Part shown: positions 5,999 to 57,907 of the stretch, one piece after another
How the letters are laid out: each line of letters begins with the position of its first letter
How positions within the stretch are numbered: position 1 is the stretch's first letter
Made by a program: the position numbers and the translations under genes
Assembly: GCF_033568475.1 (NCBI RefSeq)
Contig: NC_133121.1
Coordinates: 7,006,001-7,070,000 of the forward strand
Length of the DNA stretch: 64,000 nucleotides
Direction of reading: 5' to 3'
From: Henckelia pumila
Lineage: Eukaryota; Streptophyta; Magnoliopsida; Lamiales; Gesneriaceae
Notes under the pieces: model-generated
Seen by the model: the letters and a program-made list of their open reading frames with translations, nothing else
What the model was told of the DNA's origin: nothing
The model's database searches: none

Positions 5999-6300
5999 GG
6001 GAAAATAAGTTTTTTGGTCCAGTAACTTTACCTCTTTTGGGTTTTGCTCCATTAATTTTTTTGATGTGGGTTTTGGTATACTAATTTTGCATTTTTAGTA
6101 TTTTTTGGTCCAACTGCATACGTGTCAGATTCTGATTGATCCACGTCATCATTTTGGACCAATCAGAAGTTAACACGTATATAATTGGACCAAAAAATAC
6201 TGAAAATGCAAAGTTAGTGTATCAAAACCCACATTGTAAAAGTTAATAGACCAAAACCAAAATATAGATAAGTTAAATGGACCAAAAAACTTATTTTCCC
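5999..6300. mobile_element. Foldback MITE with inverted repeats of about 30 bp or more
   Basis: The ends are GGGAAAATAAGTTTTTTGG and its complement CCAAAAAACTTATTTTCCC. Pairing continues inward through the CAGTAACTT / AAGTTAAATGG segments, then GTGGGTTTTGGTATA against TATCAAAACCCAC, and on to a central CCACGTC / GACC region. Almost the whole 302 bp could fold back on itself. The flanks TACAAT and TATAAT are similar, so a short target duplication is possible but not proven. No coding capacity. Confidence 0.65.
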
Positions 6301-22801: not shown

Positions 22802-23594
22802 GGAAGACACTCAAAATATTTCGGAAAAGAATGCAAGTTGAAATGATAGAAACAATTTGGTTGAAGTATTTTATCAAACACTTTGTATGCAATATTTTGT
22901 TATTTTATCAAACACATAAAATGCTTCAACAATACATGTCAAAACAGTAACAAGAATTAAAAACAAATAAATAAAGAGACACGAATTTGTTTATGGAAGT
23001 TCGAAGGTCAAATCTTTCTATATCTCCCCTTCTTCCGTTTTCGAAATCATTCAACTAGAAGACTTTGAATTATACAAACCTGTTGTACACTCCCAATCCA
23101 ACCGATGTCACTCTTTCGATTAGAAACTCCTAGCATACTCTCAATGTTCATGATCGACAACAATTCAACAACCAACTACACATTCTTTAACATTTTTGTG
23201 CAAAGACTCTCAGTTTCTTACTCAACTATTCTATGAAAGACATCTCTCTTTTGTGTGAATGAGCTCTCTTCAAATGATGTATTCTTCAATACTTGAACAT
23301 GAAAGAGTATTTTACCAACTTGATTTGGTGTGGAGGATTTAAATTTGAAGCCCATCTCTCTTCTTGTTTCTCACACCTCACTTTCTTAGGCTTGCTTTCA
23401 CTCTAGCTTGTTTTTTTTCCCTATATTATGTCCATTCTTTTATCTCCCATCAAAAGCTTGTAAATTATCTTCAAAGTGTTGTATTTATGGGCTCCAAAAA
23501 TGATATGAACATTAGATTCAAGAATATGATCGTTTGGAAAGTTTATGTATGCTTTTTGGTGTTGAAACTGTCATATTTGAATTGCTGGTAATTT

Positions 23595-26843: not shown

Positions 26844-26853
26844 ATATATATAT

Positions 26854-27024
26854 ATAGAGTTTCTTTCAAGTGTCCACCTACCATGCCCACCACCATGTCC
26901 ACCAATGATGTGTCACTATTCTATTGGATGTGATAAAGATGTGATAAATTGTAGGTCCAATAGAATAGTGTCACATCATTAATGGGCATAGTGATGGGCA
27001 TGGTAGGTGGGCACTTGAAAGAAA

Positions 27025-27030
<6 letters not shown>
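26854..27030. mobile_element. Full-length foldback MITE with arms of about 75 bp
   Basis: The left arm starts AGAGTTTCTTTCAAGTGTCC and the right arm ends with its complement GGGCACTTGAAAGAAACTCT. Pairing continues through CCTACCATGCCCA, then ATGATGTGTCACTATTC and TATTGGA, leaving a loop of about 25 bases around 26937-26955. Both sides are bordered by (TA)n, so TA or TATA target duplication is likely but cannot be resolved. Transcribed, it would form a long hairpin RNA. No coding capacity. Confidence 0.8.
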
Positions 27031-27060
<30 letters not shown>

Positions 27061-38561: not shown

Positions 38562-39027
38562 TAGGATGGCAAACGAACTGAATCGAGCCGAATAATGATA
38601 AAATTTTAAAGCTTGAATTCGATTCGATAAGAGTATATTCGAGTTCGAGCTCGATTCGAAGTTCTATAATCTCAAATATTTTGGCTCGAGCTCGGCTCGA
38701 AATGAAGTTCGAGTTCGAGTTCGAGTTCGGCTCGAAATATTCGAACCTATTCGTAAACTATTCGGATATTATGGTTCGAAAAGCTCGAAATGTTCGAAAA
38801 AATTCGAAATGTATATATATTTATTATATGATTATATTAATTAAATATTAAGGCTCGCGAACTATTTGCGAACTATCAAACAGAATAATTTCGGCTCGAA
38901 CTCGGCTCGAAAAAAAGTTCGAACATGTTCGAATTCGACTCGAGTTCGATAAGCTCGAATACAAATCAAATATTTATCAAGCGGGCTCGTAAAGCTCACG
39001 AACAGGTTCGGTTCGTTTGCACCCCTA
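38562..39027. mobile_element. hAT-type MITE, copy 2, with perfect 8-bp target duplication
   Basis: Same family as 1088-1492. The right end is GTTTGCACCCCTA; the left end (TAGGATGGCAAAC) carries small changes. The flanking 8-mer GTTTGCAT is identical on both sides (38554-38561 and 39028-39035). It has an extra segment of GAGTTCGAGTTCGAGTTCGG repeats relative to copy 1. No coding capacity. Confidence 0.82.
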
Positions 39028-39035
39028 GTTTGCAT

Positions 39036-43208: not shown

Positions 43209-43680
43209 TTTTTGTACCTGATAATGTGTCCGGTTCTCAACGTTTTGTACTTATTTGGTTCGTGATTGTCTCAAATTTGGGTACTTTTGTGTCAAAAGTT
43301 AGCTATCTTGTATCAATAATTTGGTTGATAGTGTTTTATTGCGAAAAGTTAAAAACAATGATAAGAAGTTCTTTTTCATTACTCATATTTATTGATTAAT
43401 TAAAAGTGTTTAAAAGAAGTGCTCGTTGTTCCCCTAAGTTTATGTGTTCAGTTCTCAATGTTTTATACTTAATTGGGTCCTTATTGTTACAAATTTGGGT
43501 AAATTTGTGCCAAAAGTAAGCTATTTTGTAACAATAATTAAGTTGATTGTGTCTTGTTGCGAAAAGATAAAAATGATACTCAGAAGTTCTTTTTCATTGC
43601 TCTTATATATTATTAATTGTACTATACTCATGTATACATTGTACTCTATAACAAAACCATTATACTCAATCTGATCGATT
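43209..43680. repeat. Tandem repeat, two units about 219 bp
   Basis: The segment GGTTCTCAACGTTTTGTACT (43230) and its diverged copy AGTTCTCAATGTTTTATACT (43449) start two units that continue to align through GAAGTTCTTTTTCATT. It leads directly into the 169-bp array. Confidence 0.65.
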
Positions 43681-44400
43681 TTGTACCTCGATAATGTCAC
43701 ACTATAATTTCATCCGGCAAATAAGTTGTGTTCATTATATTGGTTAATATGGACTCACTCTGGGTTTGTGCTCGATCTACAAAATATTGTACTGTACTCA
43801 TGGTACATTGTACTCTAGTACAAAACCATTGCACTCAATCTGATCGATTTTGTACCTGACAATGTCACACTATAACTTCATTTGAAACAGAAATTGTGTT
43901 CATTATATTGGTTAATATGGGCTCACTTTGGGTTTGTGCTCGATCTACAATATATTGTACTATAATTATTTGCACATTGTACTCTATTACAAAACCATTG
44001 TACTCAATCTGATCGATTTTGTACCTCGGCAATGTCACATTATAACTTCATCCGCCAGATATATTGTGTTCATTATCTTGGTTAATATGGACTCACTCTA
44101 AGTTTGTGCTCGATCTACAATATAGTGTACTCTACGAATGATATATTGTACTCTATTACAAAAAATATTGTACTCAATCTGATCGATTTTGTACCTCGAC
44201 AATGTCACACTATAACTTCATCGAAAAAGTAATTTTGTTCATTATCTTGGTTAATATGGACTCACTTTGGTTTCTGCTATATCTACAATATATTGTACTC
44301 TACTCATGTGTACATTGTACTCTATTACAAAACCATTGTACTCAATCTGATCGATTTTGTACCTCGATAATGTCACACTATAAAAACTAATGTACTCAAT
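43681..44400. repeat. Tandem array of 169-bp monomers
   Basis: The block TTGTACCTCGATAATGTCAC starts at 43681, 43850, 44019, 44189 and 44357, spacings 169, 169, 170 and 168. Each unit continues with TTGGTTAATATGGACTCACT and CTCAATCTGATCGATTT. The fifth is cut short and joins the tail of the 436-bp unit. No conserved protein is encoded. Confidence 0.9.
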
Positions 44401-46717
44401 CTGAACTTGTTTATACTCGATAATTTCGCTAGTTGTCCCTCACAAAATAAGATATTAGCTCGATCAATTATTTGAATCGATATGTTGGAATTTACCTTGC
44501 AATAAAATCTTGTACATTTTAGATGCTGGTGTATATCACATCAAGTGATGGTACTATATAATGGTAATATTTCTTCAACATTACTAGTGAAATATTGTAT
44601 CTTATATAGATTCATCTCTATTGAAGTTCTTGTATCCATGATATCTTGAAGTTTTTAGATGTTTACTGACCATTATTTTGTACCTCAACAATGTCACACT
44701 ATAACTTCCTCTGGAAAAGAAATCGTGTTCCTTATATTGGTTAATATGGACTCACTCTACATTGTGCTAGATCAAAGACAGATTGTACTCAATTCATGTG
44801 TACGGTGTGCTCGATTTAAAAATTAATATACTCAATCTGATCTTGTTTGTACTCTATAATTTCTCTAGTTGTCCCTCACAAAATAAGATATTAGCTTGAT
44901 CAATTACCTGTATGAATATGTTGGAATTTACCTTGTAACAAGATCTTGTATATTTTAGATGCTGATGTATATCACATCAAGTGATGGTAGTCTATAATGG
45001 TATTCTTTCCTCAACATTACTATTGAAATATTGTATCTTATATAGATTCTTCTCTATTGAAGTTCTTGTGTCCATGATATCAAGAATTTTTTGGATGTTT
45101 ACTGATCATTATTTTGTACCTAAAAAATGTCACACTATAACGTCATCCGAAAAATCAATTGTGCTCCTTATCTTGGTTAATATGGACTCACTATACCATG
45201 TGCTCGATCGACGACATATTGTACTCAATGCATGTGTACGTTGTTCTCGATTTAAAAATGAATGTACTCAATCTGATCTTGTTTGTACTCAATAATTTCT
45301 CTAGTTGTCCCTCACGAAATAAGATATTAGCTTGATCAATTACCTGTATGAATATGTTGGAATTTACCTTGTAACAAGATCTTTTACATTTTAGATGCTG
45401 ATGTATATCACATCAAGTGATGGTAGTCTATAATGGTATTCTTTCCTCAATATTACTATTGAAATATTATATCTTATATGGATTCTTCTCTATTGAAGTT
45501 CTTGTGTCCATGATATCTTGAAGTTTTTGGATGTTTACTGATCATTATTTTGTACCTAAAAAATGTCACACTATAACGTCATCCGAAAAATCAATTATTC
45601 TCCTTATCTTGGTTAATATGGACTCACTATACCATGTGCTCGATCGACGACATATTGTACTCAATGCATGTGTACGTTGTTCTCGATTTAAAAATGAATG
45701 TACTCAATCTGATCTTGTTTGTACTCAATAATTTCTCTAGTTGTCCCTCACGAAATAAGATATTAGCTTGATCAATTATTTGTATCAATATGTTGGAATC
45801 TACCTTCCAACAAGATCTTGTAAATTTTAGATGGTGGTGTATATCACATCAAGTGATGGTACTATATAATGATATTATTTCTTCAGCATTACTATTGAAA
45901 TATTGTACCTCATACACATTCATCTCTATTAAAGTTCTTGTGTCCATGATATCTTGAAGTTTTTGGATGTTTACTGACTATGATTTTGTACCTCGACATT
46001 GTCACACTATAACTTCATCCGAAAAAGCAATTGTGTTCATTATCTTGGTTAATATGGACTCACTCTATATTGTGCTCGATCGACGACATATTGTACTCAA
46101 TGCATGTGTACAGTGTGCTCGATTTAAAAACTAATGTACTCAATTTGATCTTGTTTGTACTCGATAATTTTTCTAGTTGTCCCTCACAAAATAAGATATT
46201 AGCTTGATCAATTATTTGTATCAATATGTTGAAATTTACCTTGCAACAAGATCTTGTACATTTGAGATGGTGGTGTATATCACATCAAGTGATGATACTA
46301 TATAATGGTATTCTTTCTTCAGCATTACTATTGAAATATTGTTTCTCATATAAATTCATCTCCATCGAAGTTTTTGTGTCCATGATATCTTGAAGTTTTT
46401 GAATGTTTACTGAGCTTGATTTTGTACCTCGACATTGTCACACTATAACTTCATCCGAAAAAACAATTGAGTTCCTTATCTTGGTTAATATGGACTCACT
46501 CTACATTGTGCATGATCGATGACATATTTTACTCAATGCATGTGTACGGTGTGCTCGATTTGAAAATTATTATACTCAATCTGATCTTGTTTGTACTCGA
46601 TAATAGTTGTCCCTCACAAAATAAGATATTAACTTGATCAATTATTTGAATCAATATGTTGCAATTTACCATACAACAAGATCTTGTACATTTTAAATGT
46701 TGGTGTATATCACACTG
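44400..46717. repeat. Higher-order tandem array, 436-bp unit
   Basis: The TTGTACCT block recurs at 44678, 45114, 45550, 45986 and 46422, exactly 436 bp apart each time. Each unit has a head of about 165 bp homologous to the 169-bp monomer and a tail of about 270 bp (GTTGTCCCTCACAAAATAAG, then CACATCAAGTGATGGTA, then GTTCTTGTGTCCATGATATC). Four units are complete; a truncated one precedes and another follows. CACATCAAGTGATG contains an 8-bp near-palindrome (CATCAAGTGATG). The exact period and high identity suggest recent unequal exchange or rolling amplification. No protein function is evident. Confidence 0.92.
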
Positions 46718-48480
46718 TTTTGTACCCAATCACGTTCATGCTCGTTGAAGACCACAATTTTCCTACCGAAAACTCAAATTTGATAATAATGTGCTCTATT
46801 GACTCATATATGTGCTCTGTTTATACTTGGATGCAATGTTATTAAAATCGGATCGGACCGGCCGGTTCGACCGGGAATCGGTCGTCGGTCCGGTCCGAAA
46901 CTTCACCGGAAACTGGAAAACTGGTCCAACCGATCAGAACCGGTCAAAACCGGTCAAGAACCGGTTTTTCAATTTTTTTTTTTTGAAAATTTGTATTTTT
47001 TTATTTTAAAAACTTTAAATTTAATATATTTTTATATATATACATGATTATTTGGAATTTGTACTTCATTAAAAAATTATTTTAATAATTATTGATTTTT
47101 TTAAAATTAAATAATTAATTATTTAAATAATTTAGAAGTATAATTGACATTTTGAATATATTTACATATTTATTTAGTTTTCAAACTATGACAAATATAT
47201 ATATATTTTTTCTATTTATTTATATTTTTGAGTTTTTAAAATTCAAAATATATTATTTATTAGATTATATTATATAAACGATTTTCCGGTTCGACCGTCC
47301 GGTTAAAACGGTCCGACCGGTTGGACCATTTTTTTTAGATAGATCGGTTCGATCACCGGTCCGATTATGAAAACACTGCTTGGATGTACTTGATTTACAT
47401 ACATATGTACTTGTCAATTGACATTAATATAGGTTTTTTTGTATAAATACTGAAACATGATAATTATGTGCTATATTCTCCTCTTTACGTACCTCATTTG
47501 AATATTATTGTACTTTATTTACTTGAATATGTACCCTATTTAAGTGAGTAACTAAATCTTAGATTATACTTGTCATTTGATAAGTGAAACTTGTTTGAGT
47601 AGTTATACATAGTTTTAGTATCTCAAACATAATTTAACTTGCACTCCTAATGATTGGAATATTGGTGATCTCTATTTGAAATCATATCATGTAAACATTA
47701 CATAGACATTCATGGACTACTTGCAAAAATTTGATCACATGTTTGTTAATCTTAAACTATGTGCTTGTGCGAACATCTTATTAATAATTCAATATTTGAA
47801 ACTACTATCTCAAATTATGTTTTGTACCCAATCACGTTCATGCTCGGTGGAGACCAAAAATATTCAAATTTGACAACGATGTGCTCTATTATCACTTATA
47901 TGTGCTATGTTTTTACTTGGATGTACTTGATTTACTTGCATCTGTACTTTATTTAAATTTTTCATTATTTGCTTGTCAATTAACATTAATATAGTTTTTT
48001 TTGTTTAAATACTAAAACATGATAAATATGTATTATATTTACCTCTTTACGTATCTCATTTGAATATTATTGTACATTATTTACTTGAATATGTACTCTA
48101 TTTAAGTGAGTAATTAAATATTTTATTATATTTGTCATTTGATAAGTGAAAATCATTTAAGTAGCTATTACATGGTTTTATTATCTCTAACATATATTAA
48201 CGTGCACTCCTAATTGTTGAGATATTGGTGATCTCTATATCAAATCATATCATGTAAAAATTCCATAGATATCATGGACTACGCAAAAAAACCGATCACA
48301 TGTTTGTCCATCTTTCTATGTGCTTGCATTAATAATTCAATTTTTGAAAATAACTATCTTCAATGGTGTTTTGTACACAATCATGTTCATCTCGGTGGGG
48401 ACAACAATCATACCACCCAATCATGTTCATGTTCGTTGGCTTCATCTTTTTGCCAATTTTTTTTCCCTAAAATGAAATGA
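46718..48480. repeat. Third tandem repeat, 549-bp unit, interrupted by a hAT element
   Basis: The block TTTTGTACCCAATCACGTTC starts at 46718, 47820 and 48369 (last unit partial). The first spacing is 1102 bp, the second 549. Subtracting the hAT insertion (545 bp) and its 8-bp target duplication from 1102 gives exactly 549. Units carry repeated GTGCTCTATT, TGTACTTTATTTACTTG motifs. No protein is recognised. Confidence 0.88.
46834..47378. mobile_element. hAT MITE, 545 bp, inserted in the 549-bp repeat
   Basis: The ends CAATGTTATTAAAATCGGA and, from the other strand, CAGTGTTTTCATAATCGGA are inverted. The flanking 8-mer CTTGGATG is identical on both sides (46826-46833 and 47379-47386). Subterminal CCGGTTCGACCG-type palindromes surround an AT-rich centre. 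The neighbouring repeat copy at 47820 shows the empty site. Confidence 0.9.
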
Positions 48481-48642: not shown

Positions 48643-49417
48643 TGATAGAAATCGTATTGTAATTGTAGGTTAAAATAAAGAGTCAGTGTTGTCCGCGGTG
48701 TCACAACATCAACAACAACACAGTGCAGCGAAAAATAAACAAAAATAAATAACAAGTAAATAATTTTGCACGAGTATAAAAACTCGTGCGGGTGCCTTAG
48801 GGCTAAATATCACCAGTAAACGTAAGATCAGTCTTACAAAGATAATCCTAGTGATTTTATGAAAAATCATTAAATCCTAAATTTCTCAACAAATTGAGAA
48901 ATCAAATTTGCATCCTAAAATACAATCAGAGTATAAAAGAAATCAGATGCAACTCCCGTAGCCTAAATTTGAAGAGACAGTAAAGATCTTCAACAACACA
49001 GTTCCCACAGTGTTGTCTCTGATGTCTTCAACACGAACGGCAGCACGGGGACACTTAGTAATGACGACTACAAAATATCTTCAGAATCTTCGAATTCTTC
49101 AATGTGATTTTTTTCTGAAAGCTCTCTGAATTCTCCTCTGAAGTGTGTTCTTGTTTGTGCGCAGAATCCCCCTCTTTATAGATTAGCTTTCACGTATAAA
49201 AAGGATTTCGTTGTAGAGTCCTACACAATAAGGAAATAAATCTTTTTTAGGAACAAGACTCTTTTAAATATAAATAATACTATCTATCCTAAATATATTA
49301 TCGAGATCATAGAATATTTAACCATTGCCAATCAAATCTTTTGTCTAGAAGGCAAAATTTAATATTCTAATTAGCACGCTTAAGGAAAAGATTTTCAAGG
49401 AATTAATATTTCTTTCA
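48643..49417 (-). repeat. 3' LTR of the Sirevirus-like element (775 bp)
   Basis: It runs TGATAGAAATCG to TTTCTTTCA on the plus strand. It is collinear with the LTR at 56234-57195 but lacks about 187 bp present there. By eye only a few per cent of aligned bases differ. It holds two copies of the GTGTTG palindromic motif (48686 and 49010). Confidence 0.9.
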
Positions 49418-49525
49418 ATCTCCCCCTTTTTGCCTTTCTGGACAAAACCTGCACAAACAATTCAAACATAAACTCCCCCTGAGTTTAAAACACTTCTCCC
49501 CCTGAATTTTAAGTCTCCCCCTGAA
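49418..49525 (-). promoter_or_regulatory. Polypurine tract and repeated CAGGGGGAG boxes
   Basis: Directly inside the 3' LTR the minus strand reads AAAAAGGGGGAG, the plus-strand primer of reverse transcription. Three more GGGGGAG boxes follow within 100 bp on the inner side. Multiple such boxes upstream of the tract are known from Sireviruses. Confidence 0.75.
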
Positions 49526-49739
49526 GGTGTTGTTCCTCGTGTTGGCAACACCAAGGATAACATACACATTGATACTTAGGGATTCTATAATTCATATATC
49601 AGAGCATAAGTGGGGTAGAAGTAGTTAGTCTAGTTAAAGAATATCAGAGCAATTAAGGCACATAACTAGAACAAAATAAAAACAGATATAAGAATCAGAA
49701 AATTAAAGCAAAGATGATATAAGGAAAAAATATGAGGTG

Positions 49740-52181
49740 ACACCAATCAATCTAAAATTGATCAGTATATGATCCCTCCTGATCTTCAGTGTCCTCATCT
49801 TCATCGTTCTTAGTCCCAGATGGACCAGCCTCATCTTGTGCATTCTCTCCCCCTTTTTGGCAAGAAATGCCAAATCTTGTACAACAATCACCTAAAAAGG
49901 CTCCATAAAGATCCAAGTCCTCCTGGGCTTGGGCAAACAGCTTTCAGCATGAACCATGAGAGCTTAAATGGTAGAAACAGAAAATTCCAAAGGAGAGGGT
50001 GTATGCATAATTTCTTCAGTTTCTTCAGTGTTGTCTCCCGTGTTGGCAACACCGGGAACAACATCAGCACCATTAACAATAGCAGTAGATTCAGACCAAG
50101 GAAGATCAAGGACAAGCTTTATCTTTCCTCTTAATAAAGCAGCTGCAACCTGCAGATCTTCAGTCAGTTCAGAGATACCTTCACCAATCACAAAGCAAAT
50201 CTTGAAACTCCAAAATTCCATAGATCAAAGATGGAAAAAACAGAGTGATGGATTTTAATATTCATATGCAAACTGGAGTATAGTCTTGAATACGAGTTTG
50301 CTAAAATTGAAAGTGCTCTCAGTCTCTATAGAAAATGACACAAATGCTTGTGGTCGAGTCACCACGTTGAAGCTTGTAGAAAGCATCCAATTACGTACAG
50401 CTATTTTGTGTGAGATAGAGTAAAAGGATGTGAGCTTTACAACAGAGAGTTGTCCAAAAAACTTTTGAGCAAACCACTAATGAGTAAGCATTAGCTTCAT
50501 GAATATCAGGGTGGTTCCCTACTTCAACATCCGGTGTGTCATAAAGAATATTGATGATGGCAGGGTTGAACAAAAAAAACTTTACTCTCACCAAAAATTC
50601 CAGCACTGGTTTCCTGATGTAGGGCACCACTGGAGTAAAACTATGAAATAGCTTTTGAGCCTTTCAAAAATTCAACCAAATTGAACTTTCCATAGGCATC
50701 CGCATCGATATTCTTCTCATCAATCAGCCTCGATTCACATACAAGAGTCACACAGAAGTATCTTTTCCATAGTAGAACTTGTGGGAAAAGACAGTAGTCA
50801 AATAAAACTCAGCATCAACCGTGTTGTCTGTGATGTTGCCAACACCATCAGCAACACCAGCATCAACATCAACATCAACATCAACATCAACATCATCTTC
50901 CTCGGAAAACTTGATTCCTCACTAGCTTAAGCATCATAATCATCTTTAAATGTGGAGGAATTATCAGATACATAAGACCTGATTACAGCAAATTATTCAA
51001 CATCTCTTTATCAAGCTTATCATCGGAAGGTTGAGCAAAAACAACCACAGAAATATCAGCCTTCCCTTTCTTTAGAATGTCTAGAACTTAAGTCAAGGAA
51101 GCTTCATCATCATCATAAAATACAATTTCCTCAGTAGCAATAGGAGGAACAAAAACATCAAATTCAATCATCAATCGATATTCGGCCAATAAGGCTTCAT
51201 AGTATACATTGTCTTCCTTCTCCTCTCTTATTTTCTTCACTACATGATCCATCAAAGATTGTACAAGAGCATGAGTGATCTGCAGAAAATCAGCTGTGGG
51301 AGCAGTGTTGCACGCAGTGTTGGCAACACGAGGCACAACATCAAATTCAGACCAAGTAGGTCTATTTTCCTTTTTCAGCAAAATATGAGCAACCTTCAAT
51401 TCTTCACCAACCAGAGACACAGACTCATCAATGTCTCGGATAAAGCCATATAATTCCAGAATCCTAAAGATGAGGGATGGAAAAGGCAAATTTGTGAACT
51501 TTAAAAACCTTCATCAGCAAATTGGAATATGAACTTGAATATCAGGTTCGCCAAACTTGAAGGGACTTCATGTTCCAACTGCAAAAAGTACTAGAGCTTG
51601 TACTTGGTTACCACAATAAAGTTGGTTGAAGGAGTCTCGTTCTTCACAATACTAATTGATTTTCAGCAGAACTCCTTTCTCTTCAACATCAAAAGTGCGA
51701 TATAGAGCAGTGATAACAACTGAATCAAACATATATTCGCTCATGCACAGACACTCTGTCAAAATTGGTAGATTGCTCAGCACCTCGAGTCTTGAACAAA
51801 TTTAACCAAATTCTGCCTCTTGCAAGCATCCAGATCAATCTTCTTCTCTTCAATGAACTCATAATTGACATACAGATGTCAATCAACAGTAGAAGCTTTT
51901 GAATATAAATTATGAGATAAGGAAAGTGACATGTCACACTCTCCATAAATAGTGTTGCCTCCAGTGTTAGCAACACCATTCACAACATCATCACCAGCAG
52001 AATCTTTAGCATTCGCTTCCTCAAATTCGTCATCCTCAGAGATGAAAGATGAACTACCATAAATATTTGGCCTGTTATCTGCAAGTTTCTGTTGCATATC
52101 TGCATCACGCTCTTCCTCAATGACAGCAGAAGTAGGCACATGTTTGAAGAAACCAAAACAAAAAAACAATCTGATTAGCAC
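49740..52181 (-). pseudogene. Env-like (extra) region of the retrotransposon, internally duplicated and broken
   Basis: Between RNase H and the polypurine tract, minus-strand open pieces lie at about 52181-51879, 51489-51088 and 50221-49964. The second and third correspond to each other: ILELYGFIRDIDES and GEELKVAHILL against MEFWSFKICFVIGEG and TEDLQVAAALL, followed in both by SEF or GAD, then DVVPxVANT. More distal parts correspond too (near 51700 and 50530, ALYRTFDVE and ILYDTPDVE). The region therefore holds two copies of a segment of about 1.1-1.3 kb. At the 3' end a highly acidic tail (NDEDEDTEDQEG) is readable at about 49765-49815. Position suits the env-like ORF of Sireviruses; no signal peptide or fusion motif was seen, and function is unknown. 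Confidence 0.55.
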
Positions 52182-53217
52182 AGAAAGCAGATAAGCTTAA
52201 ATAAAATCAAAGAGAGAGAATGTAGGAAGGCAATTTGATGACTGCAAAAACCAATTAAGCATAAGAATGATCAAATCCATGAATAATATATGCTTAAAAG
52301 AAATCCATTGGTCAGTAAAAGAAATTCAAACAATCAAACATTCACCTTCTAACAAACTAATCCAGAAACACTTACCAATGAAAATTCTTATGGGTAAAAC
52401 TTTTCAAATCGAGGAAATAAAATCCAACCCAATTATGAAAATAATCCGAGATTGAAAGCAATCAAAAATTCCCATAAGTAACTTCACATCGGCTCAACTC
52501 CACTAAATCATTATTAATCACAAAAATTCAATTTTTAGTAGATAGAGTATTTCACCAAATTTGTTCGTTTAGAACGTCAAACCCTGAACAGAAAATATTC
52601 ACAATTCTGAATGCATATGCATGTCTTATTTTATGCCTAAAACAGAATGTAACTTAAAAATAAAATGCAACCACATGCACATGATATGTTCACAAGTGTA
52701 GTGTTGCCTCTCGTGTTGACAACATCATCAAAAACACCATAGTTTTTCAAAAAGTATTTGAAGCTTACACACTTGATTACCCTTGATTTCAGAAAATTTC
52801 CAGAAGTGGTAGCCTGCACACTAAAAGAACAGTCTTCATTGGACTCAATTAGGTAGCTTTTTTCATTTTCTTCCGATTATTTATAAAGTTTGTACATATG
52901 ACATTGGTCATCAAACTTATTAAAAAGTTGAACACTGAATTTGTGAAACCACATTTCACATGGGACAAGAACATGGAATACACGTACATCCCTCAACTAC
53001 TTAGTGGTTTAGTCAGAGTTCCATAAACAAGGGACAGTGTGTATTAAAAAATGTTCTGCAGAAAAACTTGGCGTCAGTCGAATCACTGCAACAGAGATTA
53101 AAACACTACACATCACAAAATGAATGCAAAATGCCTAAAATCCTAAACGTGCATGAAAAAGAAAAAAAACAGTGTTGTCTATGGTGTTGTAACACCGGCG
53201 AAAACACCAGCAAAGGA

Positions 53218-54858
53218 TTATAATGCACACATGCTGAGAGACCTCCAAAGAGTATAGAAGCTCTCGAAAACTAAAATTTTTGTAAATATAACTGCCAGTT
53301 GGTTATTAGTTCCAACAAAATCCATTCGGATAACACTTTTTTCTACCAAATCTTGAATAAAGTGACGCCGAATGTCAATGGGTTTTGTGCGAGAGTGTTG
53401 AACTGGGTTTTCTGAAATGTCAATCGCACTCAAATTATCACAATAAAAAATGGGGGGTTGACTTTTAAATCCACAATCCTCTAACATTTGGTTCATCAAA
53501 AAAGGTTGTGTACAAAAAGTTCTATCTCCAAGACAACAACACCCTCCCATAGTGCTTTTACTATCATTAAAATCTCCAGCACAATCAACACAACCAAAAT
53601 CGACAAGATTGGTATCCCTAGTATACCACAATCCCAAATCCATTGTACCCGAAACATATTTCAAAATTCTCTTAACAACTTTTACATGGGTTACCTTTGG
53701 ATCAGATTGGTACCTAGCACATAAACACACACTAAACATGATATCAACATGAATTGCAGTTAAGTACAAAAAACTTCCAATCATGATGTGGTACATGGTG
53801 TTGGCAACACCGGCCGCAACACCATTCTTACCTAACTTTTCACTAGATCCCATTGGTGTTTTCATGCTTTTAGTATTCTCATAACAGAACTTTTTCACCA
53901 AAATTTCAACATACTTGCTTTGGGACAGAAAAATACCATCATGCATTTTCTTAACATCAAAACCAAGAGAATAACTCAACTCAACTACCATGCTCAATTC
54001 AAAGATGGAAGACATGTATTCAACAAAATCATCAACATGCTTTTGATCAGAAGAAGCACAAAAAATGATGTCATCCACAAAAACTTGGCAAACAGGTATT
54101 TCACCTTTGTACTTATGAATAAAAAAGGTTTTATCAACCTTACCTCGTTTGAAGCCAATTTCAAGATGATATTCAATCAACCTTACCTCGTTTGTGGACA
54201 TGAAACTCGAGCATACTAACCCAATTACCTTGAGGTAGTTCACTTTGTCCTTCATTCGAGTTTGCATTGTTCCAGAAGCATCTTCAATAATCTGTGATGA
54301 TGGATAGTTCTTTTGTATTTTGCTTGAAATGTCCTTACCATCATTTATCAAAACAACATCATCATCGCTTGGTTGATTATTCTCAGGTTCAGTCACTGTT
54401 GGACCCAGTGTTGTGCTTGATGTTGCAACATCAGAGGCAACACCTAAATCTTTCAATGGACTGAAAATTTCCAGCAGATCATCCTTAGTAGTTTTTCCTT
54501 TGATATCTTGGATAGCTTCATACTTACACAGATTTTTCAATGTCTCCAAATTTACATGACACAACTTTTGGTGCCATAAATCAAGATCATCCACTTTCAT
54601 GTGGTTGCAGGCAAGTTTCTCTCCAAGTTGGTAGTACTTTGATGATCTTGTACCTATCAAAACACATATGTTAGCATTATCAAAAACTTCACAAGTATTT
54701 TTATCAAACTTGACATGAAAATCATCATCACACAATTGACTAAAAGAAATCAAGTTTGAGTTTAGTCTCTTTGACATGTAGCACATTGTGAAACTTTGAA
54801 AATCCTTCCACGTTCGGTGTTCCTTTGCCACCAATCCTTCCTTTTGCACCACCTCCAT
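53218..54858 (-). pseudogene. Retrotransposon pol remnant: pre-integrase zinc region, partial RT, RNase H
   Basis: An open stretch of 546 codons. It starts in the region between protease and integrase (RLNSNLISFSQLC), then has LWHQKLCHVNLETLKNL (the GAG-pre-integrase block). The integrase DDE core and the N-terminal half of reverse transcriptase are absent: the frame passes through a short, unrelated acidic stretch to EIGFKRGKVDKTFFIHK and VFVDDIIFCASSDQ (the RT active-site box, normally YVDD). Next come IGSFLYLTA, the RNase H block FGCVDCAGDFNDSKSTMGG, and the terminal TKPIDIRRHFIQD. Two palindromic motif copies are read in frame (GVAAGVANT and GVASDVATS). The open frame despite deletions suggests recent decay or selection-free chance; no activity is expected. 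Confidence 0.88.
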
Positions 54859-56164
54859 AAGTCATTTTACCACATATTTGTTCAATATGGTCCATGAGAT
54901 GTTCTTTCAAACCTGTAATGTGGCGTGAGCTTCCACTATGAGAGTACCAGTGACCTGCAATGTTAGTTTTCAAGGAAGTATAAACAACAAAATACTGAAA
55001 ATCAAACTTTAGTACCCAAATTTTCTTTGTTGTGGGTCTGTTTTTGGTGGTGTTGCGCCTGGTGTTGTGCAACACGGGGGGCAACATCAGCTTTGACTTC
55101 CAATACATGCAGTCATTCCTGATCTTGAAACAAAAAGACCTGATGTGATCTGGTTTGAAACAGTAATGACACAAAAAATGGCGCTTCCATTGCTTTGGCT
55201 TTTGAGGAGGAACACGCTCTTTTGATGAAAAATTCTTGAATGGCGGAGCGACAATGGGTGCGCTAGAAGTATTGCTACCTTCTTTCACAAACACAGTTGG
55301 TTTTGATGATTCTCCAACTTCAAACACTCTGTTAACTAACCCTAGACCAGCCTTACCATTTTTACCCATTATAAAATCAAGCTTAGATGTACTTGAATTA
55401 AACTTAGCAAGATTTAGAGTTACCTTTTCAAGCTCCCCCTTATCCTTGCAGAATTCAAGATTTTTCTTACCTAGAATCACTTCAAGCTTGACCATGGCAG
55501 ACTTCAAATCAAAATTTTCTTTAGAGAGTGTTGTATTCAAATTGTTCCGTTTGATCCGATCAACATACAACTCCTCATAAAGTTCCTGCACACACTCTAG
55601 AGTTATATCATCATTGACAGCTTCCTGATCAATAAAATTACCAAGAGTAGATGTATTCAAGCAAACTGATTTTTCACTGGTGTTGCGACTTGGTGTTGTA
55701 ACACCGAAGGCAACACCCAGTGGGTTGACTTGAAAACATCTCTTTTCTTTCAGCAATGCAGCCAGGGGGGTATGATCTTCTTCATAATTCTGTTCTTGAT
55801 CTCTGTCAGAGTCATCATCTCTCAAGAAAACAGCCATACCTTTGTGGAATCGATTTGCACATTCAATTGCATAGTGTCCATATCCATTGCATTCCCTGCA
55901 TTGCACATAATCAAAATTCTTGGTATTAGATTCATAATTAACAACATACCTTGGTCGAGATGGTTCTCGAGTAGGTGACACCCTCAACAGATTTTAAGGA
56001 GCAGGAAAATTAGGGTGCTTAGATTGTTGTCCAACTTTCTGTTTGTTTCTTCTCTTCAAATAATCTTCAAACTTCTGTGTGATCAAGGAAATTGAATCAT
56101 CACATAAATCTGACTTATTGACTTTCGGTGGTCGAAATCTGACATCAACAACCGGCACGTCCAT
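54740..56164 (-). pseudogene. Retrotransposon gag-protease remnant
   Basis: Gag begins at the ATG at 56164 (MDVPVVDVRFRPP), just inside the primer-binding site, but most of the capsid domain is missing: the frame moves at once to DSISLITQKFEDYLKRR near the gag C-terminus. An in-frame TAA lies at 55994-55996. The CCHC knuckle CRECNGYGHYAIEC follows at about 55885-55925. The protease region has WYSHSGSSRHITG, in which the catalytic Asp expected in the DSG motif is His, so the protease should be dead. Near 54790 a frameshift separates this frame from the pol stretch at 53218-54858. Motif copies at 55680 and 55050 are translated in frame. Confidence 0.85.
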
Positions 56165-56219
56165 GATAAATCTACAAAATAAAAATAACCAGAATCTCTC
56201 TTAGTAAAGTCAAGAGTTG

Positions 56220-56233
56220 GCTCTGATGCCACG
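56220..56233 (-). promoter_or_regulatory. Primer-binding site (initiator tRNA-Met type)
   Basis: Immediately inside the 5' LTR the minus strand reads CGTGGCATCAGAGCC, close to the TGGTATCAGAGC complement of initiator tRNA-Met used by copia elements, with one change (C for T). Confidence 0.8.
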
Positions 56234-57195
56234 TGATAGAAATCGTATTGTAATTGTAGGTTAAAATAAAGAGTCAGTGTTGTTCGCGGTGTCACAACAT
56301 CAACGACAACACAGTGCAGTGGAAAATAAACAAAAATAAATAACAAGTAAATAATTTTGCACGAGTATAAAAACTTGTGCGGGTGTCTTAGGGCTAAATA
56401 TCACCAGTAAACGTAAGATCAGTCTTACAAAAATAATCCTAGTGATTTTACGAAAAATCATTAAATCCTAAATTTTTCAACAAGTTGAGAAATCAAATTT
56501 GCATCCTAAAATACAATCAGAGTATAAAAGAAATAAGATGCAACTCCCGTAGCCTAAATTTGAAGAGACAGTAAAGATCTTCAACAACACAGTTTCCACA
56601 GTGTTGTTTCTGATGTCTTCAACACGAACGACAGCACAGGGACACTTAGTAACGACGACTACAAAATATCTTCAGAATCTTCGAATTCTTTAATGTGATT
56701 TTTTCTGAAAGCTCTCTGAATTCTTCTATGAAGTGTGTTCTTGTTTGTGCGCAGAATCCCCCTCTTTATAGATTAACTTTCACGTATAAAAGAGATTTCG
56801 TTGTAGAGTCCTACACAATAAGGAAATAAATCTTTTTTAGGAACAAAACTCTTTTAAATATAAATAATACTATCTTGATAATATTTGATAACAATAATAC
56901 ACAATAATTCCTTATCAAGATAATATTTAATCTAGACAAATATCTATCTCAATATTTTCGATAATAACATATAAATATTTAGCCTATCATATCAAATCAT
57001 ATCTTGATAATATAAACATAAATCCTTTCAATTCGATATCAGATATAATTAAGTTAAATATCTATCCTAAATATATTATCGAGATCATAGAATATTTAAC
57101 CATTTTAAATCAAATCTTTTGTCTAGAAGGCAAAATTTAATATTCTAATTAGCACGCTTAAGGAAAAGATTTTCAAGGAATTAATATTTCTTTCA
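56234..57195 (-). repeat. 5' LTR of the Sirevirus-like element (962 bp)
   Basis: Collinear with the other LTR, with an additional segment of about 187 bp (about 56875-57062) that begins after AATACTATC and ends before TCTATCCTAAATAT. The short CTATC/TCTATC repeats at the two edges suggest the other LTR lost the segment by slippage or recombination between them. It carries motif copies at 56277 and 56601. Confidence 0.9.
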
Positions 57196-57907
57196 ATTTT
57201 TTTGCTGCAAAATCACAATGAATTCAAGACTTCAATATTCGACCCATGAAATCACTTCTTCACAATAAGACGACCAATTATCCGAGTCTAAAAATTAATT
57301 GAAATGAAACTTTAATGCTTTGACATAATGACAATCCTAAGAGAAGCAAGAACAAATATTTATTAACTGGGGAATTTTCTTTCTATGAATTTTTTTGCTC
57401 AAATTTATTCAAAATATTGTGTTTATAATAAAAAACTAAGAAATAAATATTAAATCATAGAAGATGTTCCCAATGATTTTAAATGTTTAAAAAGAATATT
57501 CAAAATCATTTATTCGGAGTTCCTTCATTTTTTTTTCTAGAATCATAATAATTTCCACCTTTAGATTCTAATGTCACGTTATTTGAAGTGCCACAAGCAC
57601 TCCACACCGCTAAATCGTCTCTGCCGCTATTTCTCTTGTGATTCTCATCACTTTTACAAATGTATATATCTCGGTGATTAATGTTGTTTTTAGGTTTGAA
57701 TTCATATGTTTATGTGTTGTTTCATCATATTTCATTCTTATGATATGCAACCCATAATACACATCTCGTGAAAATTATGTGATGATACTGTGACGGTTTG
57801 GTGGTTGGAAGCACAAATAAATTGGAAAAAAAAGATTTTTTCAATATCAGAAGAAGAAGATTAAGTTACTTAAAAAAAAAGAAAGGAAAGGGTATTGGAG
57901 GGTTTAC
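57196..57907. other. MULE interior right of the retrotransposon
   Basis: No gene was recognised. This is the continuation of the sequence interrupted at 48642. Confidence 0.4.

Follow-up and report, generated by a model that had tools for sequence, protein, structure and literature searches.

A palindrome array in a Sirevirus-like element

A 64-kb stretch of the Henckelia pumila genome (C2:7006001-7070000 of an 884.7 Mb assembly; hereafter the window) carries on its minus strand a Sirevirus-like retrotransposon that extends from long terminal repeat (LTR) to LTR over positions 48643-57198, and within this element a nested palindrome of GTGTTG and CAACAC half-sites occurs again and again. An original prediction, made from the letters of the window, had listed 15 such sites. 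We scanned the 64 kb for GTGTTG-N5..7-GTGTTG-N0..2-CAACAC-N5..7-CAACAC, scored over the 24 half-site letters, and found 15 sites at 19/24 or above, all within the element with scores of 20-23 and none elsewhere (Table 1); only positions 23476, 37629 and 48383 scored 17-18. Fourteen of the predicted starts were exact and the fifteenth, given as 53785, lies 1 nt away at 53786. The scan bore out the described geometry of four half-sites per site, with direct pairs mirrored about the centre, an outer-to-inner half-site distance of 12-13 nt and a central gap of 0-2 nt, while the motif as quoted proved to be idealised, no window copy matching all 24 letters. The weakest sites are the four LTR copies (20-21/24).

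Chance would hardly produce such an array. Sixty elements simulated under a Markov-1 model contained on average 0.75 sites at 17 or above and 0.017 at 19 or above, with a maximum score of 19, and reversed-pattern counts across the genome (given below) were likewise near zero, so the shuffled-sequence check suggested with the prediction did not refute it. The signal comes from the four-half-site geometry; the 13-nt core alone is far less striking, with 21 matches in the window at up to 3 mismatches against 10.8 expected, and one of 100 shuffles as high. Spacing was, as claimed, fairly regular (n=15; mean 565, standard deviation 138, coefficient of variation (CV) 0.244), compared with a mean CV of 0.94 under random placement, where none of 20,000 draws was as even. 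Spacing in three other copies of the element is even too, though less so (CV 0.425 in L029, 0.307 in L030 and 0.314 in L013), the widest gap reaching 1,398 nt.

The element is of the copia type by its pol (Pfam matches of the window remnant to RVT_2, E 2.1e-11, and gag_pre-integrs, E 1.4e-6). Clustered polypurine tracts mark Sireviruses, and the window element has several beside its 3' LTR: the AGGGGGAG core occurs at six places in the 10 kb scanned, of which four lie no more than about 105 nt from the 3' LTR and the additional ones near 49854 and 55440. Because the window pol matches just GAG-pre-integrase and the last part of RVT_2, this is a broken copy. Its third open reading frame (ORF), located between pol and the 3' LTR where many Sireviruses have an extra ORF, is likewise reduced to fragments.

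Table 1. Features of the retrotransposon and the palindrome sites within it (window positions)
Feature	Position	Strand	Location or remark	Score
3' LTR	48643..49419	-	direct repeat with 56234-57198	
5' LTR	56234..57198	-	direct repeat with 48643-49419	
Primer binding site TGGCATCAGAGC	56220..56231	-	from sequence; sense position 1769	
Four polypurine tracts, AGGGGGAG core	49418..49522	-	from sequence; adjoining 3' LTR	
gag and pol start	54740..55987	-	broken open frame; sites 55050 and 55680 inside	
pol remnant	53218..54858	-	GAG-pre-integrase part and C-terminal RVT_2 part; sites 53786 and 54408 inside	
Third-ORF fragment	51879..52181	-	with site 51952 (VNGVANTGGNT)	
Third-ORF fragment	51088..51489	-	with site 51305 (VPRVANTACNT)	
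Site 1	48686..48721		3' LTR	21/24
Site 2	49010..49046		3' LTR	20/24
Site 3	49527..49563			22/24
Site 4	50028..50064			23/24
Site 5	50821..50857			23/24
Site 6	51305..51341		third ORF	23/24
Site 7	51952..51988		third ORF	22/24
Site 8	52701..52737			22/24
Site 9	53172..53207		directly beyond pol end	22/24
Site 10	53786..53822		RT-RNase H	22/24
Site 11	54408..54443		pol linker	22/24
Site 12	55050..55087		gag-protease side	23/24
Site 13	55680..55716		gag	23/24
Site 14	56277..56312		5' LTR	21/24
Site 15	56601..56637		5' LTR	20/24

Homologous positions and DNA-level conservation across families

Genome-wide, GTGTTG-N6-GTGTTG-N-CAACAC has 868 + 878 exact matches in H. pumila and its reversed pattern 0 + 0; a looser form (N6-7, N0-2) has 1954 + 1965 = 3,919 exact three-half-site matches, with 0 for the reversed pattern. 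An intermediate form (N6-7, N) was found in 24 stretches of a prokaryote contig collection (257 billion bases) and in 7 of a viral one. We attribute these 31 loci to chance rather than to carriers outside plants, as they have one exact match each and none has more than one site at 20 or above.

From the first 100 motif places, all on C1, we picked 20 stretches by eye, favouring clusters; all 20 hold between 4 and 16 sites at 19 or above. Eight motif loci cut from the genome list all sit in these elements (76-92% identity to fetched copies), five of them inside the chosen stretches L009 and L010, which leaves L001, L002 and L007 as independent. Among 44 distinct spacers from the listed places, 42 lie within 1 letter of a spacer in the fetched elements, against 41% for random 6-mers. 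Grouping by similarity of the reverse transcriptase-RNase H (RT-RNase H) region gave W (the window copy, L014, L015), A (L009-L013, L016, L017), B (L018-L022) and C (L023-L026), which separate in a tree, and a tentative D of two degraded copies (L027, L028), A-D being working names. A motif-blind sample was drawn with a Prunus pol protein (78 genome matches, 54 places scored, 6 taken), and all six loci carry the motif at 6-12 sites each, several with long open frames; they fall into A (L029), B (L030-L032, L034) and C (L033). Identity to the window over 140 residues around the RT-RNase H site is about 52-90%, and 44% for L027. Homologous positions hold the motif in at least four related Sirevirus-like families; a fifth is tentative.

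To compare positions, we masked the site in each of 61 query sites and mapped its flanking peptides to the other families. A site scoring at least 18 lay within 30 nt of the homologous place in 402 of 429 cross-family rows and in 12 of 2,574 shifted controls, counts that overstate independence since the rows are related by ancestry. The check proposed at the outset, site positions in other family copies, came out with the same positions. Collapsed to target positions, 85 of 97 have a site, and 11 of the 12 without one are in the third-ORF region. In the LTRs, which align only partly between groups except W with A and C with D, the two sites are separated by 306-325 nt in six copies from W, A, C and D and by 843 nt in one B copy.

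Comparison by codon position points to the DNA rather than the peptide. Across 34 coding sites (224 cross-family rows), identity at positions 1, 2 and 3 was 0.721, 0.671 and 0.660 in half-sites, 0.705, 0.758 and 0.526 in flanks, and 0.538, 0.488 and 0.337 in spacers; inside half-sites, identity exceeds that of flanks at third positions and falls below it at second positions, which reflect the protein. With sites named by the keyword labels of the script (S1-S10), third-position identity in half-sites and flanks was 0.623 and 0.498 at S1 in gag, 0.713 and 0.567 at S2, 0.649 and 0.513 at S3, and 0.841 and 0.561 at S5 in RT-RNase H. Overall, 29 of 33 query sites stood above shifted pseudo-motifs. 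A cruder comparison over all positions (429 rows) gave 0.690 for half-sites, 0.473 for spacers and 0.609 for flanks, where masking conceals small shifts and lowers both the half-site and the spacer values. The proposal that the motif is more conserved than its flanks therefore holds for third codon positions overall, and not at every site (S4, S9 and S10, below).

Two codon phases are used for the first half-site (21 and 13 of the 34 sites). The GVAxGVANT coding reading suggested earlier is correct for some sites, and others, such as MLPPVLHNTRRNT, lie in the second phase; the two phases and the differing peptides rule out a repeated peptide as the conserved unit. At homologous sites of family A (VLPHVLHNTKRNT) and family B (VLPKVLATPSHNI), the right arm is shifted by 1 nt and the peptide altered, and the half-sites are kept. 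At the RT-RNase H site, most A-C copies carry three half-sites and then YRS or YHS codons, and the window copy and L014 have YHI with a fourth half-site closer to CAACAC, as if protein and DNA demands compete there. Because third-codon identity is highest in half-sites, two codon phases are used and paired arm changes are not in excess (below), selection seems to act on the DNA of the motif.

The third ORF, its clade and the candidate roles of the array

The region termed env-like in the original prediction does contain sites; it is the third ORF, which has a Transposase_32 domain in better-kept relatives and is present as an extra ORF in relatives such as L010, L024 and L029-L032. The L010 copy sits within an open stretch of 607 codons (Transposase_32, E 8e-24, Pfam), and all 11 aligned third-ORF rows match this family, with nothing else credible. 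Where relatives are full-length, they have in common a DIRSEM-like start, a basic patch that reads RRSKRQAG or nearly so, and a stretch rich in serine and acidic residues, and by eye the product appears to end in a C-terminal coiled coil. Across families, identity at codon positions 1, 2 and 3 is 0.53-0.58, 0.63-0.67 and 0.37-0.44 at the N-terminus (7 rows) and 0.57-0.66, 0.57-0.73 and 0.35-0.40 at the C-terminus (6 rows), compared with 0.81-0.84, 0.86-0.90 and 0.53-0.55 in pol (8 rows). Since position 3 is far less alike than positions 1 and 2, the third ORF is, on this codon pattern, under purifying selection, and it evolves faster than pol. An additional ORF of Athila also matches Transposase_32 according to one report (PMC11728184), and another calls the roles of additional ORFs unclear (PMC7264820).

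The window pol has 611 protein relatives, and among the best 120 of these the RT-RNase H peptide echo appears in Primulina eburnea (three proteins), P. tabacum and Castilleja, and not in Prunus, Vitis, Rehmannia or the other rows inspected. Several Tanacetum proteins have ESVDNT at this place without the DVAxG part, so VDNT by itself has no diagnostic value. A tree was built from 32 rows, 21 taken from the 120 proteins and 11 from H. pumila copies, with P0051 and L027 left out as too short and no named Sirevirus reference (SIRE1 or Opie, for example) among them; in it the rows from Gesneriaceae and Castilleja group together with support 100/98. A word pattern, NT..DN, echoes the motif in 8 of 14 third-ORF proteins; those without it are mostly fragments, but H. 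pumila proteins 351 and 377 residues long are also among them. The Primulina and Castilleja elements, known from peptide echoes only, would belong to the motif-bearing clade.

A Rehmannia-type Sirevirus also has at least 100 matches in H. pumila; this sister clade is known from one locus, L066, a 7-kb stretch with its LTRs outside. Those 7 kb hold no four-half-site motif even at 17/24. Instead, positions 5170-5453 of L066 hold four ATCGG-N3..5-CCGAT palindromes. They precede the first Met in the third reading frame, an arrangement that by its sequence matches the published RM layout described next. The third ORF of L066 matches Transposase_32 (E 2.7e-18) and P0124 of Primulina eburnea (24% identity over 207 columns, E 5e-5).

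RM boxes of Sireviruses (Bousios et al. 2010; PMC2829016) are mostly CGG-CCG palindrome cores of about 10-20 nt that cluster in the LTR and upstream of ENV, with a few extra copies at the ENV start in two elements; linker palindromes were found only with ENV, 77 of 79 ahead of it. Like the present motif they are palindromic, numerous per element, located in Sirevirus LTRs and the third-gene region and highly alike within an element. They differ in their CGG-CCG core and their clustering, whereas here four GTGTTG half-sites stand singly through gag, pol and third ORF, evenly spread at a CV of 0.244. A search for TCGG-N2..5-CCGA found none in the window element or L029, and the suggestion that the motif might be a published Sirevirus repeat was not upheld. 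Maize Sirevirus LTR palindromes are described as small-RNA hotspots (PMC5311732); they too are palindromes in Sirevirus LTRs and are tied to the host epigenetic response, but they are confined to LTR regions.

A full-text literature search with the 13-nt core gave no match, with thin coverage of subscription journals, and title and abstract searches on Sirevirus palindromes, VANC, Transposase_32, dispersed sites and Henckelia pumila, equally thin for such journals, yielded only the 2010 RM work as a near match. Retroelements such as Drosophila gypsy carry clustered insulator or protein-binding arrays, which resemble the present one in having repeated sites for one protein inside a retroelement and differ in forming a single non-coding cluster, whereas this array runs evenly through genes.

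We consider the motif very probably a DNA-binding site. Across 205 sites at 19 or above in 21 loci, the commonest geometries are 6/1/6 (87), 6/0/6 (38), 6/0/7 (21), 6/1/7 (17) and 7/1/7 (16), with a half-site preference of about R-RTGTTR-Y. A tandem half-site pair facing another such pair, with a flexible centre of 0-2 bp between them, would suit a multimeric binder, either a dimer of dimers or a dimer whose chains each make two DNA contacts. Sites recur every few hundred bases, so that little of the provirus would lie far from a bound complex, and because they run from LTR to LTR, an effect on the chromatin of the whole element would fit better than one on a single promoter.

The VANC proteins of VANDAL DNA transposons (Hosaka et al. 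2017; PMC5735166) indicate that plant mobile elements can make sequence-specific anti-silencing proteins; they carry DUF1985/DUF287 and recognise 8-9 nt motifs in tandem repeats of non-coding DNA. Neither DUF1985 nor DUF287 was among the families listed at E 10 for third-ORF rows, where HMMER filters drop most weak matches. Both systems have a short motif repeated in a mobile element and, as we propose here, element-wide action of the element's own protein; a further likeness is that the third ORF evolves faster than pol.

Our interpretation, which we put at a little short of an even chance, is that a multimeric DNA-binding protein, possibly the product of the third ORF, occupies the array and acts on element chromatin in a VANC-like manner. 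The likeliest binder would be this product, with its basic RRSKRQ-like patch, acidic middle, Transposase_32 domain and apparent C-terminal coiled coil, although we regard the assignment itself as plausible rather than probable. It leads because third ORF and palindromes often travel together: in both clades, the sister clade being represented by one locus, a Transposase_32 third ORF accompanies the clade's own palindrome. The likeliest effect would be to keep the element open or demethylated, as VANC does for VANDAL transposons; such an anti-silencing role, argued by analogy, is offered tentatively. More speculative again is a general scheme in which this Lamiales LTR retrotransposon clade has its own chromatin-coating system, with a nuclear, sequence-specific protein encoded by the third ORF and with gag, pol and the third ORF itself rewritten to form an even array of quadruple sites that would leave no part of the provirus uncovered, while sister Sireviruses use a like protein with another, clustered palindrome that co-evolves with it.

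Several results weigh against the third-ORF chromatin interpretation, in addition to the shared ancestry of the rows noted above. Third-position identity in half-sites shows no excess over flanks at S4 (0.524 against 0.511, 37 rows), S9 (0.250 against 0.359, 5 rows) or S10 (0.438 against 0.436, 2 rows), and between families A and C half-site identity is below that of flanks (0.547 < 0.613, 62 rows), out-of-register rows contributing both to the low A-C value and to the unevenness among sites. No DNA-binding domain was recognised in the third ORF, for which Pfam passed Transposase_32 only, and a PDB profile search gave no credible relative. L066 has Transposase_32 without the GTGTTG motif, so the domain alone is not predictive, and the RM study mentions six ENV-containing Sireviruses without RM boxes (PMC2829016). 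The VANC comparison is also imperfect, the present host being an LTR retrotransposon with Transposase_32 whose quadruple half-sites are dispersed and largely coding.

The strongest competing explanation, which we nevertheless judge unlikely, is that a host transcription or chromatin factor binds the motif and is drawn to the array to serve transcription, insulation or nuclear positioning. The half-site resembles CAACA, the RAV-type AP2 site, and the R-RTGTTR-Y preference and the presence of sites in both LTRs as well as the body would suit a host protein. The RM study matched its palindromes mainly to sites of stress-related factors (PMC2829016). However, a promoter factor needs no sites every few hundred bp in pol, the half-sites persist although peptides change, and all three independent motif places (L001, L002, L007) lie in these elements, a tiny sample in which wider use is unseen.

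The motif might instead act in RNA, forming hairpins at intervals in the genomic RNA that serve its packaging, its protection or the control of translation, which we consider improbable. All seven window sites tested can fold as hairpins and two clearly beat shuffles (z -2.96 and -2.53), but the other five do not do so clearly (z -0.17 to -1.68). In the 205 sites, outer arms had 24 double changes (9 complementary) against 25.6 expected and inner arms 18 against 15.6, in a test biased by a score threshold that disfavours double changes; all 18 inner changes are complementary, though nearly any change there is G to A. Spacer complementarity scarcely exceeds that of shuffled spacers (0.376 against 0.358, standard deviation 0.013). 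With no paired-change excess and mixed folding scores, an RNA hairpin is disfavoured, and among the roles first suggested DNA binding fits best while RNA or packaging functions are weakened.

Still less probable is a role in double-stranded complementary DNA before integration, in condensation, nuclear import or integrase loading; the even spread across the whole element, both LTRs included, would fit, but the related copy L066 has no such spread in its 7 kb. A mobile mini-palindrome inserted repeatedly, or one copy spread by gene conversion without function, could explain the many similar copies in each element and is very improbable: spacers vary between sites and diverge more than flanks, and at RT-RNase H, the single site tested, proteins with and without the motif align at equal length (KLSKDGVAKGVDNTLYRS, KIHRDLHGKSVDQTLYRS), so the motif there probably arose by substitution and the host protein was not lengthened. 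Related families would be expected to share positions, but chance, or common ancestry without function, has a negligible claim: simulations, reversed patterns, shifted controls and the prokaryote collection counts speak against chance, and the third-position excess and half-sites kept while spacers change speak against ancestry.

The function of the third ORF and the purpose of Sirevirus palindromes are called open in two studies (PMC2829016, PMC7264820), and a motif kept in coding DNA at fixed intervals despite peptide change bears on both questions. If the third-ORF protein binds it, LTR retrotransposons would possess a chromatin or anti-silencing system that acts on the whole element and is apparently independent of the VANDAL one. 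Whatever binds, a mobile element can hold dense DNA-level information within its coding sequence.

State of the window copy and neighbouring repeats

The LTR pair is 96.3% and 97.8% identical in two aligned blocks. At a substitution rate of 1.3e-8 per site and year, this divergence would place the insertion very roughly 1-1.5 million years ago. About 180 nt of the 5' LTR (56876-57058) has no counterpart in the 3' LTR, reflecting an insertion or an LTR deletion. Within 50028-51341, the sites starting at 50028 and 51305 are each similar to the group A site late in the third ORF, which would fit a partial duplication or recombination of that ORF in the window copy.

Beside the 3' LTR, at 47404-48272, a stretch of about 305 nt occurs twice (86-88% alike, 562-563 nt apart). 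Further along lies a composite satellite array (43224-46714) with 168/338-nt units at 43616-44383 and then a 436-nt unit repeated 5.4 times at 44381-46714; the 168/338-nt and 436-nt units have sequence in common. Dispersed repeats at 1088-1496 and 38562-39031 are 87-92% alike and lie about 37.5 kb apart. Two inverted repeats with short loops, at 5999-6299 (145-nt arms, 76% complementary) and 26844-27040 (85-nt arms, 92%), are possibly akin to miniature inverted-repeat transposable elements.

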